From Lactobacillus crispatus (lineage in GTDB: Bacteria > Bacillota > Bacilli > Lactobacillales > Lactobacillaceae), in NCBI RefSeq assembly GCF_018987235.1, contig NZ_CP072197.1, positions 372,001 through 436,000 of the forward strand: a DNA stretch of 64,000 nt. Reading direction: 5' to 3'. Shown piece after piece: positions 3,689 to 55,158 of the stretch; the stretch's first letter is position 1; each line of letters opens with the position of its first letter. The notes beneath the pieces were generated by a model. It was not told the DNA's origin. It ran no database searches and saw only the letters and a list, made by a program, of their open reading frames with translations. Both the position numbers and the translations under genes were made by a program.

Positions 3689-5197
3689 ATGAAATATATA
3701 ATTGGCATAGACATAGGAACTACTGCGACTAAAGGTGTGTTGTATGGCGAAGATGGAAGTGAAGTAGCTAAATTGGCAATTTCCTATCCATTGATTCAGG
3801 AAGAAGCGGGGCAGGCTGAAGAAGATCCACAGCTTATTTTTGACGCGGTACAGAAAATGATTTATCAATTAAGTCAGAAAGCATCTGGTAAAATTTTGGC
3901 AATTTCTTGGTCTAGTCAGATGCACAGCTTAATTGGCTTAGGTGAAAATAATGAGTTACTGACAAACAGCATTACTTGGGCAGATAATCGTAGTAGTGAT
4001 GTAGTGCAGCGGGCAAAAAAGTCGGGCTGGGCAAGAATGATTTATCAGCAAACGGGGATGCCGCCACATCCGATGGCACCAGTGTATAAATTGCTGTGGC
4101 TTAAAGAAGAACAGCCAACACTTTTTGCACAAGTAAAAAAATGGATTAGTATCAAAGAATATATTATTTGGCGCTTAACTGGAAAAATATTAACTGATAC
4201 AACTATGGCTGCTGGCAGTGGAATGATGAATTTAAAAACGCTGACCTGGGATGAAAAGATATTGGCTCAGATTGGGCTAGATCAAGCTCAATTGCCGACA
4301 ATTGCTGATCAACAATCTACTGTGGGTAAAATTATTCCAGAATATCGTGCTAAATTGGGTTTAAATGATGAAACTCAAATCGTTTTGGGCGCAAGCGATG
4401 GGTATTTGTCAACGATTGGTGTCGGCGTTTTGGATGAGAAAGATTTTGCATTGAATGTTGGCACTTCTGGTGCGGTTAGAGTAATTGCACCGAAGGCAAT
4501 TGTTGATCAAAAGAATCGCTTTTTCTGTTACCCTGTTGACGCCAAACATTATTTGCTTGGCGGCCCTGTAAATAATGGTGGAATTGTGTTCGATTGGGCC
4601 AGAAAAACAATTTTTGGCCCAGATGAAACGGCAGAGTACGTCTTAAATGTGGCACAAACTGCTCCGGCTGGAAGTAATGGATTGTTGTTTCATCCTTATC
4701 TTGGTGGTGAACGAGCTCCAATTTGGAATGCTCAAGCACGTGGATCTTTTGTTGGCTTGACGCGAAATCACACTAAACCGCAGATGGCTAGAAGTGTTTT
4801 GGAGGGAATTGTTTTTAACTTGCTTGGCGCCTCTCAAGGATTGCTTGATCAAGTGGGACAGCCTCAAGCTTTACGTGTTACTGGTGGCTTTGTGCAAAGT
4901 GATTTTGTTAGACAATTAATCGCGGACATTTTTAACTTACCAGTGATTGTAATTAAAAATGAGCAGTGTGGTACCCTAGCAGCTATGTTTTTAGCTAAAA
5001 CTGCATTAGAAGATAAGCCAGACCTGGAAAAGATTAAAAAGCGTACTGCCGAAAGCCAAGTTTATTTTCCAAATCCCCAAAATGTAGCGATTTATCAAGA
5101 ATTGATTCTCGTTTATCGAAAAATTGAGCATGAACTTGAAGCCTCTTATGAAGATTTGGCTCAGTTTCAAGATAAGCATCCACAGAAATTTGAGTAA
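3689..5197 (+). CDS. gntK: gluconate kinase, FGGY carbohydrate kinase family
   Basis: A 502-residue FGGY kinase that phosphorylates a sugar or sugar acid with ATP, most likely gluconate for the pentose phosphate/phosphoketolase route. The N-terminal IGIDIGTTATKG is the phosphate-1 motif. The central LGASDGYLSTIGVG and C-terminal LRVTGGFVQSDFVRQLIADIF are the adenosine-binding and FGGY signatures. It stands alone without a gluconate permease next to it, so the substrate is inferred from overall resemblance to GntK of lactobacilli. Xylulose or another sugar is possible. Confidence 0.85.
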   Translation: MKYIIGIDIGTTATKGVLYGEDGSEVAKLAISYPLIQEEAGQAEEDPQLIFDAVQKMIYQLSQKASGKILAISWSSQMHSLIGLGENNELLTNSITWADNRSSDVVQRAKKSGWARMIYQQTGMPPHPMAPVYKLLWLKEEQPTLFAQVKKWISIKEYIIWRLTGKILTDTTMAAGSGMMNLKTLTWDEKILAQIGLDQAQLPTIADQQSTVGKIIPEYRAKLGLNDETQIVLGASDGYLSTIGVGVLDEKDFALNVGTSGAVRVIAPKAIVDQKNRFFCYPVDAKHYLLGGPVNNGGIVFDWARKTIFGPDETAEYVLNVAQTAPAGSNGLLFHPYLGGERAPIWNAQARGSFVGLTRNHTKPQMARSVLEGIVFNLLGASQGLLDQVGQPQALRVTGGFVQSDFVRQLIADIFNLPVIVIKNEQCGTLAAMFLAKTALEDKPDLEKIKKRTAESQVYFPNPQNVAIYQELILVYRKIEHELEASYEDLAQFQDKHPQKFE

Positions 5198-45830: not shown

Positions 45831-46652
45831 ATGAGAATAGGTTCAGCTTTAAAAAAAGAGAGATTACGCATGGGATTGACTCAAGATGAAATGATCCAAG
45901 GAATTATTAAAAAGAGTCATTATTCAAAAGTCGAGCGAAATTTAGAAGGGATTTCTGCTGATAGTTTATTTGAAATTCTGTTTGCTCACAATATTGATAT
46001 TGATAATTTCCTAGATCAAATAAAGGATGAATATAGGTCAGTTGAAGGCAAAAAAGCAATAAAGCTAAATCAAGAGGTTATAAAAGCTTTTAATGAATCT
46101 GCTACTAATAAAATGCAAGAAAAATTACATGATATTTTGCAATTAAAGGGTCAAACTATTTTTAAATATAGAGCTATTGTTTCTGTAGCTATTCTTAGTG
46201 GACAACTGAATTTATTGAGCCCTGATCTTAAAAAGCAAATTTTTTTGCAGTTTGCAAAGTATGATAACTGGTTTGAAAATGTGGATGCTTTACGCCTGCT
46301 TGCTAATTGCCTGCCTATTTTTAAGATAGAGCAATTGGACAACGTTATTAACCAACTACTTAGGCATTATTCTAAAAACAGAAGCTATTCAGAAAGAATG
46401 ATCGAACGGATTGCCATTATTTGTAATAATTACCTATACTATTGCTTTTATTCCAATGTCGAGGGGAAGAATATTAGTGCTTGTCTAAAGTTTTTAAGTA
46501 ATTTAGATTGTAGTTATCATTTTCTTTTTTATCATATTGCGGGAAAGTTTTATCTCAACTTATTTAAAGATGAAAAGAATGAAGCTAGAAAAATTAAAAA
46601 GCAGTTGATCTCTTATGGATATAAGAATTTAGTAAGTTCATGGAGGACGTAG
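45831..46652 (+). CDS. Rgg/GadR/MutR-type helix-turn-helix regulator
   Basis: About 273 residues. The N-terminal XRE helix-turn-helix is IGSALKKERLRMGLTQDEMIQG...SHYSKVERNLEGIS. The rest is helical repeats of the Rgg C-terminal domain, which bind short peptides in known members. The frame is open to 45789, but the ATG at 45831 begins at the conserved MRIGSALKKER. It sits 144 bp upstream of the small peptide gene, so it probably controls the cluster. Strongly AT-rich codon use compared with rex. Confidence 0.82.
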   Translation: MRIGSALKKERLRMGLTQDEMIQGIIKKSHYSKVERNLEGISADSLFEILFAHNIDIDNFLDQIKDEYRSVEGKKAIKLNQEVIKAFNESATNKMQEKLHDILQLKGQTIFKYRAIVSVAILSGQLNLLSPDLKKQIFLQFAKYDNWFENVDALRLLANCLPIFKIEQLDNVINQLLRHYSKNRSYSERMIERIAIICNNYLYYCFYSNVEGKNISACLKFLSNLDCSYHFLFYHIAGKFYLNLFKDEKNEARKIKKQLISYGYKNLVSSWRT

Positions 46653-46796
46653 TTTAGTAAGACGAAACTTTTGCAACAAATTTAATATTTGGAGTAATAA
46701 TTAGATTATCGTTAAAAAAGCGAGATGATAAATTTGATTTGGGAATTACCTATTATTGTAAATTGATTTTTTATAAAAGGAAAGAAGGTGAAAAAA

Positions 46797-46871
46797 ATGA
46801 GACTTGAAGAAGAAGTTGAATTTGGCCCGTACAATAAGCCAAATACTTGTAATTGTACTACAGCTTGTTAG
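46797..46871 (+). CDS. putative RiPP precursor peptide, 24 residues
   Basis: A short frame behind a strong RBS (AGAAGGTGA, 8 nt before the ATG). The N-terminal half is acidic (EEEVEFGP) and the C-terminal nine residues are NTCNCTTAC, with three Cys and three Thr. This leader/core layout, the regulator before it, the hairpin after it, and the ThiF-type enzyme and exporter downstream all fit a ribosomally made, modified peptide. The Cys residues are likely modification sites, but the chemistry is unknown. The peptide itself is intact although its enzyme gene is broken. Confidence 0.72.
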   Translation: MRLEEEVEFGPYNKPNTCNCTTAC

Positions 46872-46883
46872 ACTGTGATTTAC

Positions 46884-46950
46884 AAAAGACTGATGAAATA
46901 TGTTCAATGTCTTAATTTAATGATATTGAGATGTATTATCAGTCTTTTTT
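46884..46950 (+). terminator. attenuator-like terminator between peptide and enzyme genes
   Basis: AAAAGACTGAT (46884-46894) and ATCAGTCTTTT (46938-46948) form an 11-bp stem with an internal TCAAT/ATTGA helix and a six-T tail. It lies between the precursor and the modifying enzyme, allowing much more precursor than enzyme mRNA. Confidence 0.8.
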
Positions 46951-48550
46951 ACTTATAATGGAGAAAATAATGGAGAAATTAAAAACTAATCTGGGATTTT
47001 TAGGAAATAAGAAGGATAGAATTTATGTTAATATTCCAGGTATTGACAGTGATCTCTTAACTATTCGGGTAGATAATTATAAGAAAGCTTTTAAATATTT
47101 AACAGATATATCAATTAATGGCAAAAATCAAATAACAGATTCGATTTCAAAATCATATAATCAATTTTTGGCAAAGCAGAATTTACTTTATTTAGACTAT
47201 GATATTCAAAAGGAAAAGAATGTTAGAGCACTAAATTTCTTTAATAATATTTCACCGCTACCTAGTCGATATTCTATACAAGATAAATTTAAAAATTATA
47301 CTATTGCAATTATAGGATTAGGGACACTTGGTACTTCATTGTTACAGTACCTTATTCAATTAGGAATAAAAAATTTTGTATTAATAGATGGTGATAAAGT
47401 TGAGAAAAAGAATATTAGTCATCAAAGGTTTTATTCACTAGTAGATATTGGCAAAGCTAAGGTTAGTGTTTTAAAGGAAAAGCTTCCAACTATTTGTGAA
47501 AATATTAATGTAGTAGCTTGTAATAAATATTTATCCGAGAATAATTTATTTTCAAAAATAATTGACAAGAAACTGAATGCTGTATTTTGTGCTTTTGATA
47601 ATGCATGCTAATTCAGATATTTTAAGAGACATTTTTGATTACTGCCATGAAAAAAATATTATTCCATATATTGCGGGATATAAACGAGAAAGTGTTACAG
47701 CACAATTACTTTCGACTAGATCTATTAAAAGTCTTATTACTGAGAGTGATCAATATGACATTATAAAAGAAAATTCTGGTGTAGGGTATTTAGGAGATAT
47801 GGCTGCCATTTTATTAATAAGATTATGGCTACAAAGTATAGTTTCTTCTGCTGATTATGGTTGGGATTATTTAGAGTATAATTTGTTTTCTAATAAGCAG
47901 AGTTTAGTAGATAATAATGTACTGAATTATTATAAAATAGAAAGAAATACTACCTCTAATTTCTTTGATAAATATATTTTAAATCCTTATATTGATAAAT
48001 TATATAGTGAATATTTGAGAACATCACAAAATCAGTATAAATTTGAAATAAGTACATTGTTGAAAAAGTTTAAAAAGAAAAATAACTTTGTAGAAAATAC
48101 TGAGGAAAGACAATATGAAAAAATGTTGGACCACCTTACTATTTCATACAAAGATAAAATATATTCTATACAAGAATTTTATTATAAGGTCTTAGCAGAG
48201 AATCAGGTGCCTTTAAAAAAGTATAAAGAATTTTATCAGAAGTTATATAAGGTAAAAAGTAATGCACTAAATGTTTTAAAAGAGAAGCAGAAAAGAATTG
48301 CAAAAAAATACAGAAAATCTATTTCTAACTCTATTGAAGAAATCATTGATCCAATTGTAATCAATTTAAACGAATTATATTTTGAAAACAATAAGGTGGA
48401 TTTTATTAAGTATAATCTAAATTATAAGTATAATTATAAAATGTCATTAAATGATCAAATAGAAAAAATTTGCCGTCTTGATAATTTTTTACCAGGTTAC
48501 GAAATGACACAACATATTAAATATTTGTTTGATCATAATTTTATTGATAT

Positions 48551-49922
48551 GAGACTGTAAAATAGTTTGTGTAAGGATGAATGATTCCTTAAATTTATTT
48601 CTTTAAACATTAGAAAAAGGAGTTCCTTTCTCGTATGATTGGTTTGAACAAAAAAACACATACAGAAAGAAGAACTCCTTCATGAATGATTTTACCAAAG
48701 ATTTTGCTCAAGCTCTATTCAATCCAGACAAAATAAATGATTTATTGCGCAAAGAGCTACAACAGGCTGTTAATAACTTGCTAGAAGCTGAGTTGACTGC
48801 CTTTCTAGGCTATGATCCCTATGCCAGAAATGGCTGGAATACTGGCAATTCTAGAAATGGTGCTTATTTCCGCAAGGTTGATACCCAGTTTGGACCAATT
48901 GAAGTGCAAGTGCCTCGAGACCGCAACGGTCAGTTTCATCAGCACACGCTGCCTGACTACAAGCAGCACTCTGATGTTTTGGAAAGCACGATTATCAAGC
49001 TATACTCCAAAGGCGTAACTACCAGAGAAATCGCTGACTTGATTGAGAAAATGTATGGCAGTCATTATAGTCCAGCTCAAGTATCAAATATTTCCAAGCA
49101 GATGCTCCCCAAGATTGAGGCTTATCACAAGCGCAAGCTAAGCGACAAGTTTTTCTGTGTCTATTTGGATGCGACATACCTTCCTTTGCGCCGAGAAACG
49201 TTTGAGCGTGAAGCAGTATATATTGCCATTGGCATTAAACCTAATGGACATAAGGAAGTCATTGACTACTGCATTGCTCCTAGTGAGAACATTGAAGTTT
49301 GGACAGAGATGCTTCAAAACATGAAGTCCAGAGGCTTGAAGCAAGTTGAGCTTTTTCTTTCTGATGGTGTTGTTGGCATGAAAACAGCCTTGGCCAGGAC
49401 TTATCCTAAAGCTCATTTTCAACGCTGCCTGGTTCATGTCATGCGCAATATCTGCGCTAAAGTACGCGTCGACGATCGTGAAAAGATCATGAACGAATTC
49501 AAGCAGATACATCAACAGACAAGCAAAAAAGAAGCTGCAGCTGTCTTGCACAAATTCTATGCCAAATGGAATAAAGCTTATAGCCATGTCATCAAAGGTT
49601 TGAAGGAAATTGAGCCCGATCTGCTAGTCTTCTACAATTATCCCAAACAAATCAGAGCTTCAATTTATTCAACCAATATGATTGAATCCTTTAACAACGT
49701 CATCAAGCGTAAAGCTAAGCCTAAGGCAGAATTTCCAACTGAACAGTCGCTTGATGCATTTATTGGCATCCAGGCAATGAGCTACAATGACCGTTATTTC
49801 AATCGAATTCATAAAGGCTTTGGTCAGGTTCAGGACACCTTAGAATCCTACTTTGATTAAATAAATAATTAAAAAATCAATTTACGAGAAAGATCTATTT
49901 ACACAAAAGATTTGACAGTTTC
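48551..49922 (+). mobile_element. IS256-family insertion sequence, 1372 bp
   Basis: Terminal repeats read GAGACTGTAAAAT on the left and, inverted, GAAACTGTCAAAT on the right, both ending TTTGTGTAA. Flanked by the 8-bp duplication ATTGATAT (48543-48550, 49923-49930). It interrupts the ThiF/M3 gene, and removal restores the frame. AAGGAGTTC (48617-48625) pairs with GAACTCCTT (48672-48680) just before the transposase ATG. Confidence 0.95.
48682..49860 (+). CDS. IS256-family (Mutator type) transposase
   Basis: 392 residues with the Mutator-type layout: LLEAELTAFLGYDPYAR and GNSRNGAYFRKVDTQFG at the N-terminus, then the catalytic domain with YLDATYLPLRRE, LFLSDGVVGMKTAL and the CLVHVMRNI stretch, and SIYSTNMIESFNNVIKRK near the end with the catalytic Glu. 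It appears intact. No Shine-Dalgarno lies next to the ATG; the only AAGGAG is in the left arm of the leader hairpin. Confidence 0.95.
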   Translation: MNDFTKDFAQALFNPDKINDLLRKELQQAVNNLLEAELTAFLGYDPYARNGWNTGNSRNGAYFRKVDTQFGPIEVQVPRDRNGQFHQHTLPDYKQHSDVLESTIIKLYSKGVTTREIADLIEKMYGSHYSPAQVSNISKQMLPKIEAYHKRKLSDKFFCVYLDATYLPLRRETFEREAVYIAIGIKPNGHKEVIDYCIAPSENIEVWTEMLQNMKSRGLKQVELFLSDGVVGMKTALARTYPKAHFQRCLVHVMRNICAKVRVDDREKIMNEFKQIHQQTSKKEAAAVLHKFYAKWNKAYSHVIKGLKEIEPDLLVFYNYPKQIRASIYSTNMIESFNNVIKRKAKPKAEFPTEQSLDAFIGIQAMSYNDRYFNRIHKGFGQVQDTLESYFD

Positions 49923-50202
49923 ATTGATATTTCAAGAAATAATAAAAATTCTTTTACTATATTAAATCAAAGACAATTTGATATGAATACAGTTATTTCT
50001 TTTAAAAATGATATTTCAGGGCTTCTTAATATGGCACATGAAGTTGGCTTAAATTATTTCTCTTCATTTGTGTTAGATAAAAAAATAGTCGATAATTTCT
50101 CATCCTATACAAGGGAACTTTTTTCTTTTATGAATGAGATACTTATTTTATATAGTAGTAAAAATTGGAAAAGAAAGATTAGTTATAGAGAATTATTAGA
50201 AT

Positions 50203-51167
50203 ACGCGTGGTGCTAGTTAAATCTTTCTAGACAATAAGCCAAATTATAAGCTAAAATTGCAATTTCCAACCGGCTTTGAAAGCCTATCAGACTACGTGCT
50301 CGATTGTTCTCGGCATTGTAATAGGTCAGAAGCGAAAAGTCGCTTTCAATTGTTCTGCGAATAGCCATCAATTGATGATCATTGTGCTTTTTAGCTCCTG
50401 TCATATTTTTACGATATGGTGTCCAAAGTTCATAACCCATTTGTTTTAGCTGTTGATGCAGTTCTTTGCCTAAATAGCCTTCGTCGCCAAGAAGATAGTA
50501 ATTAGATGGATGTGCATTTTCCATCAGTTCAACTGTCTCCTTGGCATCATGAACTGATGCTTTTGTTACGACATAATCAAGAATGTAACCGTCATCGCTA
50601 ACAATGGCATGAACTTTGAAACCATAGAAGTAAATTTTCTTGGTGGCCTTATAACCAATGTTGGCATAACCGCGAAAAATTTTAGCACGATAGTTGCGAA
50701 TTGGTTGGCAAACAGGTACCGGAAAGCTGTCAATGATCAAGAAATGTCCATTCAGGTCAACCTTTTTATTCATTTCTTGCCGTATCTGATAAATCAATTG
50801 CAATAGCTGACGTGAACGCCGATTAAAACGTGAGTGTGATAAACAATTGAAACATTCACAGAATCTTCTTTGTGATTCAATTCCTGTCTTAGCTTGCCAG
50901 ATAAGTAAAGCCAAAATCAGACTGTCCGTAGTTTTAATTTGATCAATATTTCGCCGATGAGTAAACTCAGCCGGTGCATACAAACGATACCAGTGCCGAC
51001 AAATTATCACTAAATCTTTAAAACTAACTTGTAAATGGTGGCTAAAACGCTTAAGCTTAAGGCAGTTCAATCAGATCAGACTCTTTTCTATTATTACTAT
51101 TTACAAGTCGAGTCTAACAAGATTGGACTTTTTTATTAACTAAAACGATTTAACTAGCACCACGCGT
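50203..51167 (-). mobile_element. IS982-family insertion sequence, full copy, 965 bp
   Basis: Perfect terminal repeats ACGCGTGGTGCTAGTTAAAT at both ends and the 8-bp duplication ATTAGAAT (50195-50202, 51168-51175). It interrupts the ThiF/M3 gene in its 3' third, and removal restores the frame. The internally deleted relative is at 14676-15393. Confidence 0.95.
50213..51070 (-). CDS. IS982-family transposase
   Basis: 285 residues with the IS982 DDE layout: ESQRRFCECFNCLSHSRFNRRSRQ, FLIIDSFPVPVC with the first Asp, YYLLGDEGYLGKELHQQ with the second, and RRTIESDFSLLTYYNAENNRAR with the Glu. The reading frame is complete, so this copy may be active and could also mobilise the 718-bp derivative. 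Confidence 0.95.
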   Translation of the reverse strand: MNCLKLKRFSHHLQVSFKDLVIICRHWYRLYAPAEFTHRRNIDQIKTTDSLILALLIWQAKTGIESQRRFCECFNCLSHSRFNRRSRQLLQLIYQIRQEMNKKVDLNGHFLIIDSFPVPVCQPIRNYRAKIFRGYANIGYKATKKIYFYGFKVHAIVSDDGYILDYVVTKASVHDAKETVELMENAHPSNYYLLGDEGYLGKELHQQLKQMGYELWTPYRKNMTGAKKHNDHQLMAIRRTIESDFSLLTYYNAENNRARSLIGFQSRLEIAILAYNLAYCLERFN

Positions 51168-51604
51168 ATTAGAATATTTATATAGACAGATTTCTAATCC
51201 ATATTCAATTGATTTATATGAAGAAGGTATTTTTACAAGCAAAAACACCTTAGATTGGACTAGTATACTTTCTATTAGACGAAGTATCACACATAGGTTG
51301 AATCCTAATATTAAGTTTACTAATTTTGATGTAACTAACCTAAATATTGTCACAAATTTTGGAATTCTTTTTTCGGAGAGAAAATTGTATCTCTATCCAG
51401 AAATGTATTTAATAGCTTTCTTTTTAGTTCAAAAGTTTCTAGAAGAACCATTATTATATGAAAAGTTTATAAATTATTTGAGTCAATCGAATGACTTAGA
51501 ATATAATACGATATTAAATAAGGTATATGGAGAAACAGTGCAAGGAGCAATCAAAAAGGGTGGAAAAGCATTACTCTCTTTTTTAAGGAACTATGGTGTA
51601 GATA

Positions 51605-53179
51605 ATGGCAATTAAAATAGCTAAACCAATAACCACATTGATGTTTATTTTTCTTGCAATAATTCGGTCATGTCAAACGCTTTTCATTGCTTGGGTAGTA
51701 AAATTACTAATTAATTTTGCTACAGGTAAAAGTAGTGGTTTACTAAATATCGTTCTTTTAAGCACTTTTGGATTGTTCTTCTTTTTACTGTTTGATCTCT
51801 TGTATGAAAAGGTATATTCCAAGTTAATATTGGAAATAAACATGAAGATAAAATCTAGGGCAGCATTATGTTTAATCTTCAATCCAGATGTTGCAAAAGA
51901 TGTTGATACTTCATTTCTAACAAATGATCTTAAGCAAATTGAAATAAATAAAATCGCTTCAGAGTTGGAAATTATCACAAATATTATTCAGTTGACTTTA
52001 GCATTGATTTTTGCGTTATACAATTCTGCTTTGCTGACTATTATATTTCTTTTTGCATCTTTTATTCCAGGAATTTCACAGCGTTTATTTGGTATTCCAA
52101 TTGAAAAAAGTTCAGAAAAATGGGAGCAAAAAAACAGTAATTACACAGAAATTGTAAAAGAAACACAAAATATTTCTGAGACAGCCCGGCTATATAATTC
52201 ACGACAGAATATTTGGAATAGGTTTAGATCCGCAGCTTTTCGAATGGAAGAATCATTATTTAGGTTAAACTGTTTGCGTGGCTTTTCAAATGAAACAGTA
52301 GAATTACTTGCTTATGCTTTTAGCATGCTGATTCCTACTGCAGTTGGCGTGCTTTTAGTAAAAGAAAATAGTGTTACCTTAGGAACATTAATGATGATTA
52401 GTACCTTATCTAATAGTTTTGTCAATCCATCAATTTCAATTTTCTATTCGTTAAACAATATCAAGACAACCAAGCCAATGTGGGATAAGTTTACTAAGTT
52501 AAATGTAGTAACAAGTAAAAATAATCGCTTACCGTTTGGAAAATTCTCCGGGTTGACCTTGAAAAACGTATATGTTGAATTAGGAAATCATTCAATTATT
52601 AATAATCTTAGTTTAAATATTAAACAAGGTGAAAAGGTGCTATTAATGGCACCATCTGGTTGGGGTAAAACTACATTATTAAAGACTTTATTAGGCATAA
52701 TTCCAATCAAAAAAGGAAAATACTTATTAAATGGTAATGATGCCGAAAAAGAAAAAAGTGAAATTCATTTATATTTTAGTTGTATTAATCAACAACCTAA
52801 ATTATTAAATGATACGATTCTATATAATATAACTTTAGGAAATAAAATTTCAGATCATCAGTTAAAAAACATAGTTAATATTTCAGGGCTCGATACTCTT
52901 ATTCAAGAGAAAGGTTTGAACTATATTATAGGACAAGATGGAAAGAGGTTGTCTGGAGGTCAGAAACAAAGAATTGAGATTGCCAGAGCATTGTACTTTG
53001 ATCGATCAATTATTATTGCGGATGAAGCAACTTCAGCGTTGGACAATAGGCTTTCTCAGGAAATTCATGATGCATTGACTAACATTAAAGGTAAAACTAT
53101 TATTGAGGTAGCACACAAGATATCTGATAATGAAAAAAAGCAGTTCGATAGAATAATCGAACTAGATAAACTGAATTAA
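51605..53179 (+). CDS. ABC transporter with fused membrane and ATPase domains (peptide exporter)
   Basis: 524 residues. Six predicted membrane segments occupy the first 300, then an ABC domain with Walker A APSGWGKTTLLK, signature RLSGGQKQRIEIARAL and Walker B SIIIADEATSALD. There is no N-terminal C39 peptidase, so leader removal must be done elsewhere. The ATG overlaps the end of the ThiF/M3 gene by 11 bp, so the two were one operon. Likely exports the modified peptide and may give immunity. AT-rich like the rest of the cluster. Confidence 0.85.
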   Translation: MAIKIAKPITTLMFIFLAIIRSCQTLFIAWVVKLLINFATGKSSGLLNIVLLSTFGLFFFLLFDLLYEKVYSKLILEINMKIKSRAALCLIFNPDVAKDVDTSFLTNDLKQIEINKIASELEIITNIIQLTLALIFALYNSALLTIIFLFASFIPGISQRLFGIPIEKSSEKWEQKNSNYTEIVKETQNISETARLYNSRQNIWNRFRSAAFRMEESLFRLNCLRGFSNETVELLAYAFSMLIPTAVGVLLVKENSVTLGTLMMISTLSNSFVNPSISIFYSLNNIKTTKPMWDKFTKLNVVTSKNNRLPFGKFSGLTLKNVYVELGNHSIINNLSLNIKQGEKVLLMAPSGWGKTTLLKTLLGIIPIKKGKYLLNGNDAEKEKSEIHLYFSCINQQPKLLNDTILYNITLGNKISDHQLKNIVNISGLDTLIQEKGLNYIIGQDGKRLSGGQKQRIEIARALYFDRSIIIADEATSALDNRLSQEIHDALTNIKGKTIIEVAHKISDNEKKQFDRIIELDKLN

Positions 53180-53231: not shown

Positions 53232-55158
53232 GTGTGTCGGGCATGGAATTCATCTAGTTCAATGAAAGTTTGTACCACGGGTAGTTGTCACCAAGTGTAG
53301 TGAACCACAAGCTGGTAACGGTGACGTTATGAGTGAAGAAAGTGGCTAGCGAGTTTTCCGAGCCTACGTATAGAAACCTGGTCAGGCCAAATGGCGAATA
53401 AGACTGCCATTCAAGTCGAAGTCCCAAAGACAAACGTAAAGCCAAGACGGTAAACCAGGAGGCAGTGGAAAGCAAAAGATGAATGCCTTACCCCGAGAGA
53501 TCTTGCGGATAGGCAAGCCGAGCAAGCTTTAATATCAGCGATCGTAAGCCTGGTCGAAAAAGGTTAATCACGAGAAGTCAGCTGAGGTCATAGTAGCGAA
53601 GAGGGTCTTGTAATGAGACTGGATGCGAAGGACCTAATGTTTGTAAGAGCATATCCCGCTATAAGCAATGTTCAGACAGTCCGAATAAGAGGATAGCCTA
53701 GCACAAAGAGAACGTAGCTCTTTGATGGTGAAAGCAATTGGGATAATTCTGAATAAATCTACAAGTAGAATGGAGATATCACGAGATGAAATTAATTGAA
53801 CAGATTCTGAGTCAAAGCAATCTCAAAGAAGCGATTCGCAGAGTCAAAATCAATAAAGGCGCCCCTGGCGTGGACCGAAAGAGTGTTGATGAGCTTGATG
53901 CCTATTTTAAGAAGCATCAAACCGAAATCAAAGCCTCAATCATGGAAATGAAGTATCGCCCACAGCCAGTCAAACGGGTTTATATTCCCAAAGCCAACGG
54001 CAAGAAGCGGCCTTTAGGAATACCCACGGTCGTAGACCGGGTAATCCAACAGGCAGTAGCTCAGGTGCTGATGAAGATCTATGATCCTCATTTTAGTGAG
54101 CATAGCTATGGCTTTAGACCTAAACGCAGTGCCCATGATGCCATTGAGCAAGTCTTGGAGTACTTGGATGAAGGTTATCAATGGATAATTGATTTAGACA
54201 TTGAGAAATACTTTGACACGGTCAATCATGACAAGTTAATTTCAATAGTAAGAGAACGGGTAAATGACAAAACCACCCTCCATTTGATTCGAGCCTTCCT
54301 TAAAGCTGGAGTCATGGAAGATGGTTTGGTTAAGCCTAACAAGCTTGGCGTACCACAAGGCGAACCGCTTTCGCCAATCCTGTCCAACATCTATCTAGAT
54401 AAAATGGACAAGGAATTGGAACAGCGTGGCTTGCATTTTGTCCGTTACGCGGATGACTACAATATCTTTGTCAGAAGTGGAAAATCTGCCAAACGCGTGA
54501 TGAACTCAATTTCATTATGGCTGGCAAGAAAGCTGTTCTTAAAAGTCAACGCAACTAAAACCAAGGTTGTCAGACCAACTAAGAGCAACTTTCTAGGCTT
54601 TAGCTTTTGGAAAGGCGGTCAGCACTGGCAAGCAAAGCCAGGAGATGACCGCAAAACCAAGCTTTATGACAAAATCAGATTGCTTTTATGTCGTAAAAGA
54701 GCAGCGGCACAGCCTTTATCGCTAATATTTACTAAAGTAAATCAAGTGATTAGAGGCTGGATCAACTACTTTGGCATTGGCACAATGAATACTTTATGGA
54801 TAAATTTGGTCAATGGCTGCGGCATAAGATACGGGTGGTAATCATTAAACAATGGAAACGTCCTAGAAGAATATATACCAACTTGATGCGAATAAACAAG
54901 GCGTTAAAGTGCAACTTTAGTGATGAAGATATTAATAAAGTAGCCAATACGCGCTTAGGCTGGTATAGAAGAATCAACGGGACTATCATTAATTTCATGC
55001 TCAGCCCTAAAGTATTAGGGATCAAGAAAGCGGATCGACCAGGACTGGTCAATCCGCTGGAATACTATTTATCTCGTAGATAATTACAAATATAGCGCCG
55101 GATATGGAACCGTACGTCCGATGCAATGAGAGGGGCGAGCTTGAAAGCTCTACTCTAT
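53232..55158 (+). mobile_element. group II intron (IIC-like), about 1.93 kb
   Basis: It begins GTGTGTCGGGC (GUGYG-type 5' end), followed by about 550 bp of structured non-coding RNA, the LtrA-type ORF, and a 3' end with a domain V-like hairpin (GCCGGATATGGAACCGTACG near 55096) and domain VI before CTCTAT. It lies directly after a terminator hairpin, the target preferred by group IIC introns. End positions are estimated to within a few bases. Confidence 0.85.
53786..55083 (+). pseudogene. ltrA: group II intron reverse transcriptase/maturase, frameshifted
   Basis: The RT domain is intact: GAPGVDRKSVDELD, RPLGIPTVVDRVIQQAVAQVL, DLDIEKYFDTVNHD, GVPQGEPLSPILSNIYLDKMD and FVRYADDYNIF (YADD). At about 54793 a run of three Ts should probably be four. 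Frame 1 therefore goes astray after GIGTMNT and ends at 54841, while the maturase tail (MDKFGQWLRHKIRVVIIKQW...) continues in another frame from 54796 to 55083. No endonuclease domain follows, fitting class C. Confidence 0.85.

Follow-up and report, generated by a model that had tools for sequence, protein, structure and literature searches.

Enzymes resembling ThiF that act on ribosomally synthesised and post-translationally modified peptides (RiPPs) adenylate a carboxylate, which is then attacked by a nucleophile (PMC12150305; PMC12250964; PMC12710340). These enzymes form a growing group in which few chemistries have been solved, and phosphoramidate, bicyclic, imide/amide and indolylamide compounds have been reported among their products (PMC12150305; PMC12250964). 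This work deals with a gene cluster located at positions 45831-53179 of a 64,000-nucleotide stretch of Lactobacillus crispatus DNA (contig NZ_CP072197.1, positions 372,001 to 436,000), hereafter the window, whose source genome is a single contig of 2.24 Mb. The cluster is real and of the RiPP type; the copy of this strain is broken, and other strains have an intact one. Two features distinguish it from the described RiPPs of ThiF-like adenylyltransferases (TLATs): the fusion of an E1 (ThiF-like) domain to a domain resembling M3 peptidases, and a precursor ending in PNTCxCxxxC. The E1-M3 fusion is named in no title or abstract opening in the literature searched, and an earlier mention in the genome mining of Wang et al. 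2024 is possible.

Regulator, short peptide frame, hairpin, E1/ThiF-like gene and ATP-binding cassette (ABC) exporter form one block. A previous sequence-only reading had described the same layout, with an exporter lacking a C39 peptidase, and had interpreted it as a peptide natural-product locus; the layout is confirmed in the sequence and the interpretation is supported by the conserved Cys-ended frame that accompanies the enzyme.

The precursor peptide

The precursor frame of the window, MRLEEEVEFGPYNKPNTCNCTTAC, consists of 24 codons (46797-46871, forward strand) and is preceded by the ribosome-binding site AAAGGAAAGAAGG. A frame ending in PNTCxCxxxC-stop lies directly 5' of the long enzyme in all four loci with a readable 5' flank, namely the window, L002 (RLEEVEFGPYDKPNTCNCTTAC, GTG start), L005/L069 (MVNKVKFGEHNRPNTCYCLSGC, TTG start) and L062 (MKLRKKFNFNQRPNTCYCFQKC), the latter belonging to another genus of the family; P0002, P0003, P0005 and P0006 come without readable context. 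These precursors have 22-24 residues with three Cys in the tail, which is kept although the enzymes share only about 30-46% identity outside the closest pair. M1, F9, P15, N16, T17, C18, C20 and C24 are invariant in the four aligned peptides, the invariance of M1 reflecting start codons read as M. The peptide frames of the window and L002 have different start codons, and they are further set apart by one N/D change, three silent substitutions and a gap of 3 bases that preserves the reading frame.

The sequence-only reading had declared itself open to refutation by homologues devoid of such a conserved peptide, and it withstood this check. Besides the four loci, a profile built from the four peptides gave three strong matches in 397 family genomes (3.9e-15, 1.5e-14 and 2.1e-12 in G000, G007 and G332), all of them adjoining the long enzyme, and the next value was 6.3e-4. 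The enzyme search of the family genomes found the long enzyme in the same three, G020 coming from a different search. At E values of 1 or less some match appears in 150 of the 397 genomes, and such weak matches are taken as chance. One weaker match (G516, 0.00218) was rejected, as its letters were read by eye as ordinary coding DNA, presumably rpoB.

Other ThiF loci, too, have a short frame with a ribosome-binding site that precedes the enzyme on the same strand (13 of the 16 in which the script recognised the enzyme, out of 20 fetched), a count that may include chance frames. A different ThiF cluster, L106 (3417-5861, G058), has a 41-residue precursor ending in SCNNNC, with the same C-terminal CxxxC, together with an LpxL-like acyltransferase (Lip_A_acyltrans 1.1e-4, just below cut-off) and a small frame that by eye resembles an acyl carrier protein; it is possibly a lipidated ThiF RiPP cluster. 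In L121 (1756-4800, G228) the genes directly after a ThiF-like gene encode an agr-like pair, a GHKL sensor kinase with a LytTR response regulator, and an upstream 45-residue frame (4990-5127) ends in KCECCT. An E1-based agr-like system is possible in this locus, where AgrB was not searched for.

The precursor and the enzyme gene are separated by a hairpin plus T-run (46884-46948, forward strand) with a folding energy of -26.1 kcal/mol (z -7.35, equalled in none of 200 shuffles), which may act as a leaky terminator or attenuator. A hairpin with a T-run also occurs between peptide and enzyme in L002 (z -6.62); the stretch tested in L062 folds no better than shuffles (z -0.84), and a simple terminator scan restricted to loops of 3-8 did not pick up the window hairpin.

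The enzyme: an E1 part fused to an M3-like domain

In the window the enzyme gene, whose pieces together span 46970-51615 on the forward strand, is a pseudogene affected by a frameshift and stop near 47605 and by two insertion sequence (IS) insertions further on; the frames for peptide, regulator and exporter are all open. Part A (46970-47611), which comprises an N-terminal region that may resemble a RiPP recognition element (RRE) and the start of the E1/ThiF domain, closes at the premature stop caused by the frameshift. Part B (47604-48550) contains the remaining E1 domain and the start of the M3-like domain (P0001 residues 211-526, 99%), part C (49923-50202) carries the degenerate zinc motif HEVGL, and part D (51168-51615) is the C-terminal end of the M3-like domain (P0001 614-762, 99%). 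Parts B and C are separated by an element that we take to be of the IS256 type (48551-49922, forward strand, 8-base target repeat attgatat), with a Mutator-family transposase (48682-49860, PF00872 1.5e-109), and parts C and D by a second element on the reverse strand (50203-51167, 8-base target repeat attagaat) with a DDE_Tnp_1-type transposase according to Pfam (50213-51070). The ends of both elements were read by eye.

The length of 762 residues reconstructed in the sequence-only reading proved right, for P0001, an intact database protein of 762 residues from a cluster of 122 member sequences, aligns to each of the four pieces of the window gene at 98-100%. The L002 enzyme frame is unbroken and 92% identical to P0001, and there are three loci with open enzyme frames. 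No further long enzyme was found in 295 genomes of the order or in 398 + 299 genomes of the phylum at the thresholds used, and searches of plasmid and phage collections returned 4 and 0 records, none spanning more than 17% of the enzyme.

The E1 part corresponds to residues ~1-297 and matches PF00899. The Gly loop, Asp, Lys and Asp are invariant in 7/7 aligned enzyme rows, and their ATP/Mg roles are assigned by analogy from papers. As had been suggested by the earlier comparison, the closest solved relative by sequence is MccB (2.6e-20), with positions 60-238 of the enzyme profile co-linear with MccB 67-241; co-linear homology with stand-alone RiPP-type E1s begins at residue 1. This co-linearity speaks indirectly for the RRE that had been proposed in the N-terminal region, but the model of residues 1-100 has a pLDDT (predicted local distance difference test) below 50. 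With regard to antiphage E1 systems, three L002 proteins were run through PADLOC: the E1 part of the enzyme matched only E1-E2-type models (best 2.6e-11) and a BilD model weakly (0.0019), and the other two proteins matched mad-type and helix-turn-helix (HTH) models.

The sequence-only reading had recognised the E1 part and overlooked the peptidase-like domain, which is over half of the enzyme. For residues ~300-762 the predicted structure has the fold of an M3 oligoendopeptidase F. HExGH is present in 5/5 other homologues covering the site, among them P0004, whose cluster has 66 members; P0001 and L002 read HEVGL and HEIGL, respectively, and the HExxH zinc site of the window lineage is not intact, its second His being missing. 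In the eight enzymes scanned, Pfam assigned the HExxH stretch to none of its peptidase families, and sub-threshold matches outside this stretch were M13 in P0006 (375-494) and C39 in P0004 (336-401).

The family also has a second group of fused enzymes, of ~600 residues, which are paired with different precursors, and all five of its sequences have HExxH plus a Glu located 18 residues past the first His. Profile comparison aligns the 762- and ~600-residue groups over residues ~30-284 only (N-terminal region and E1 part), so common descent of the two HExxH domains does not follow. Precursor-like frames of the ~600-residue enzymes were observed in L066 (4783-4956, G037), with four tandem NDVNISGIYK-type cores, and in L063 (6502-6582, G367), ending in DDIYISNIWK. 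Three frames of 11-14 codons with strong ribosome-binding sites (MLTQTIEWHKI, MLRLVHRIGPPWFF and MLLKCIFFPITHYE) sit 3' of the exporter in an E1-HExxH cluster, L065 (7787-8095, G069).

Peptidase-like proteins also accompany E1 proteins as separate genes. In two of six stand-alone E1 loci, L101 and L102, whose E1s score best outside the window, a PepF-like protein with a broken HExxH (HESIG and HEISG, respectively) lies one or two genes from the E1. These proteins have ~560 residues and match oligoendopeptidase F in PDB (2qr4, 6.1e-23 and 2.8e-25) and NCBIfam pepF (1.4e-45 and 5.5e-45, below its cut-off), with no Pfam family. By eye no PepF-like protein was seen in the remaining four loci, one of which, L105, has a HEFSH protein. 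Between the E1 and PepF-like genes there are proteins of 432 (L101 3964-5262) and 452 residues (L102 5798-7156), the former weakly similar to oligopeptide-binding proteins (SBP_bac_5 8e-7, below cut-off) and the latter lacking a Pfam match. A split-type relative, L061/L068, was found in the phylum scan of 398 genomes; in L068 (2911-5467, G611) small Cys-ended frames are accompanied by an E1-like protein and, encoded apart from it, a HEFSH protein.

Regulator, exporter and probable acquisition of the cluster by transfer

The frame interpreted earlier as an Rgg-type regulator is present (273 residues, 45831-46652, forward strand), and the label Rgg/MutR/PrgX-like draws on weak matches: HTH_3 in the window protein (E 0.0026, below cut-off), and in PDB Lmo0325 (1.8e-4), a MutR-family protein (0.0048) and PrgX (0.018) for the L002 orthologue. 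No Rgg model appears among the Pfam or NCBIfam hits of the regulator. The exporter (51605-53179, forward strand) is a permease-ATPase of 524 residues according to Pfam, whose hits include no C39 peptidase domain, and for its L002 orthologue the highest score, though far below cut-off, is with the streptosactin exporter GggC (183.9 of 750 bits). Next to the cluster there is a group II intron (53315-55083) with a reverse transcriptase frame (53786-54841) followed by a separate 95-codon frame.

The AT-richness pointed out in the sequence-only reading holds: the guanine plus cytosine content is 24-30% in the cluster gene pieces versus 35-36% in rex and in the flanking gene labelled scrR in that reading, and 37.3% over the whole window. 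Within the enzyme gene, the two IS elements reach 37.5 and 40.1%. Both the window and L002 copies are placed directly after rex, and the synonymous divergence (dS) between them is 1.5 in rex and 0.13-0.43 across the cluster genes, so that the cluster appears far more recent than the adjacent gene. This is in keeping with the acquisition by transfer proposed earlier, against which it must be considered that AT-rich codon use may lower dS. For the enzyme, the exporter and the regulator, nonsynonymous divergence (dN) is lower than dS.

Proposed chemistry and comparison with known systems

The reading towards which we lean is that the locus is a TLAT RiPP cluster, inactivated here, whose E1 would activate the last Cys so that a thiolactone is formed. 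The N-terminal domain would bind the leader, the E1 would adenylate the last Cys at its C-terminal carboxylate, and the thiol of an upstream Cys, most simply Cys20, would attack it to give a thiolactone macrocycle with a five-residue CxxxC ring. The M3 domain would hold the short peptide and trim it where HExxH is intact; in the window lineage it could be a non-catalytic peptide-binding chamber, or the leader could be removed elsewhere. The product would exit by the ABC exporter (a major facilitator superfamily exporter in one relative) and might be either a bacteriocin or a signal to which the Rgg-like regulator responds. Weighing against a general thiol rule, the precursors of L101 and L102 are devoid of Cys.

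The same kind of RiPP cluster could carry out another chemistry, such as C-terminal amidation, imide or lactam formation, or nucleotidylation with an N-P bond like that of microcin C, the Cys residues serving for disulfides, metal or recognition. This is unlikely in our judgement, albeit a serious contender: the products reported for ThiF-like RiPP enzymes include phosphoramidate, bicyclic, imide/amide and indolylamide compounds (PMC12150305; PMC12250964), CxCxxxC could bind metal and Asn16 is invariant across the four peptides, but in 4/4 loci Cys occupies the final position, where microcin C has Asn, and the frames scanned from rex to the intron include no further modifying enzyme. Another reading, in which the short frame encodes an Rgg-type pheromone that is left unmodified while the E1-M3 protein is a peptide-processing enzyme acting on an unrelated substrate, is quite improbable. 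An Rgg-like regulator adjoins the frame in the window and in L002, and an ABC exporter is present. However, this tail is rich in Cys rather than hydrophobic, which sets it apart from short hydrophobic pheromones; the peptide stays with the enzyme in L062 and L069, where no regulator was seen by eye among the frames of at least 90 residues lying directly upstream, and the short frames 5' of the enzyme in 13 of the 16 other ThiF loci mentioned above, chance frames possibly included, also argue against a pheromone. A chance short frame beside a decaying gene, conceivable given that the window enzyme is a pseudogene and AT-rich DNA often has short frames, is rejected by the conservation of the peptide in all four loci with three clean matches in 397 genomes, and disfavoured by dN below dS in the three genes mentioned above.

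Returning to the thiolactone, a broader proposal may be put forward tentatively, doubtful as it is: a one-protein maturase (clamp, E1 and M3 chamber) could make five-residue thiolactones like the autoinducing peptides (AIPs) from CxxxC-COOH precursors independently of AgrB. This route would have passed between lactobacilli by transfer, and the M3 partner, deprived of its zinc site on more than one occasion, would have come to serve for holding the peptide. Peptide and enzyme constitute a minimal two-gene system for asking whether E1s make AIP-like thiolactones, and the fusion bears on why peptidase folds persist once the metal site is lost.

Among the described systems, MccB of microcin C7 shares with this enzyme a co-linear E1 and part of the N-terminal domain, a short precursor and an expected C-terminal activation; on the other hand, the precursor here ends in Cys instead of Asn, there is an additional M3-like domain, and the Arg of NLTRQ is His. 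Oligoendopeptidase F and Pz peptidase A (M3) differ in that the window lineage has HE(V/I)GL and is fused to an E1. Ind (IndF/IndP) and enterofaecin (EnfB) are likewise lactic acid bacterial TLAT RiPPs with short precursors and transporters, and Ind also has a peptidase, although a separate one (PMC12150305; PMC12250964). IndP is an M16 peptidase, whereas the domain fused here is of M3 type, and the Ind and enterofaecin cores (NWYFI, WIVI) lack Cys.

The eight window-block frames scanned against Pfam, with the flanks of the relatives mostly unscanned, contained neither a radical S-adenosylmethionine (SAM) gene nor a YcaO cyclodehydratase, the partner expected in thiazole/oxazole-modified microcin (TOMM)/azoline RiPPs with an E1-like docking protein, and AgrB was not found among the scanned frames either. 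According to PMC12250964, GRC-type RiPPs (GrcB, Streptococcus pneumoniae) also combine a ThiF-like enzyme, a C-terminal Cys and an expected thiolactone, but there the C-terminal Cys is linked to a Glu by GrcB, which acts together with radical SAM enzymes; the four peptides described here, unlike the GRC type, share no conserved Glu. If the CxxxC thiolactone is right, the product would resemble the staphylococcal AIP (agr) in having a five-residue ring closed on a Cys thiol, with the difference that the AIP is linked to AgrD and AgrB and not to an ATP-dependent E1 (PMC12250964).

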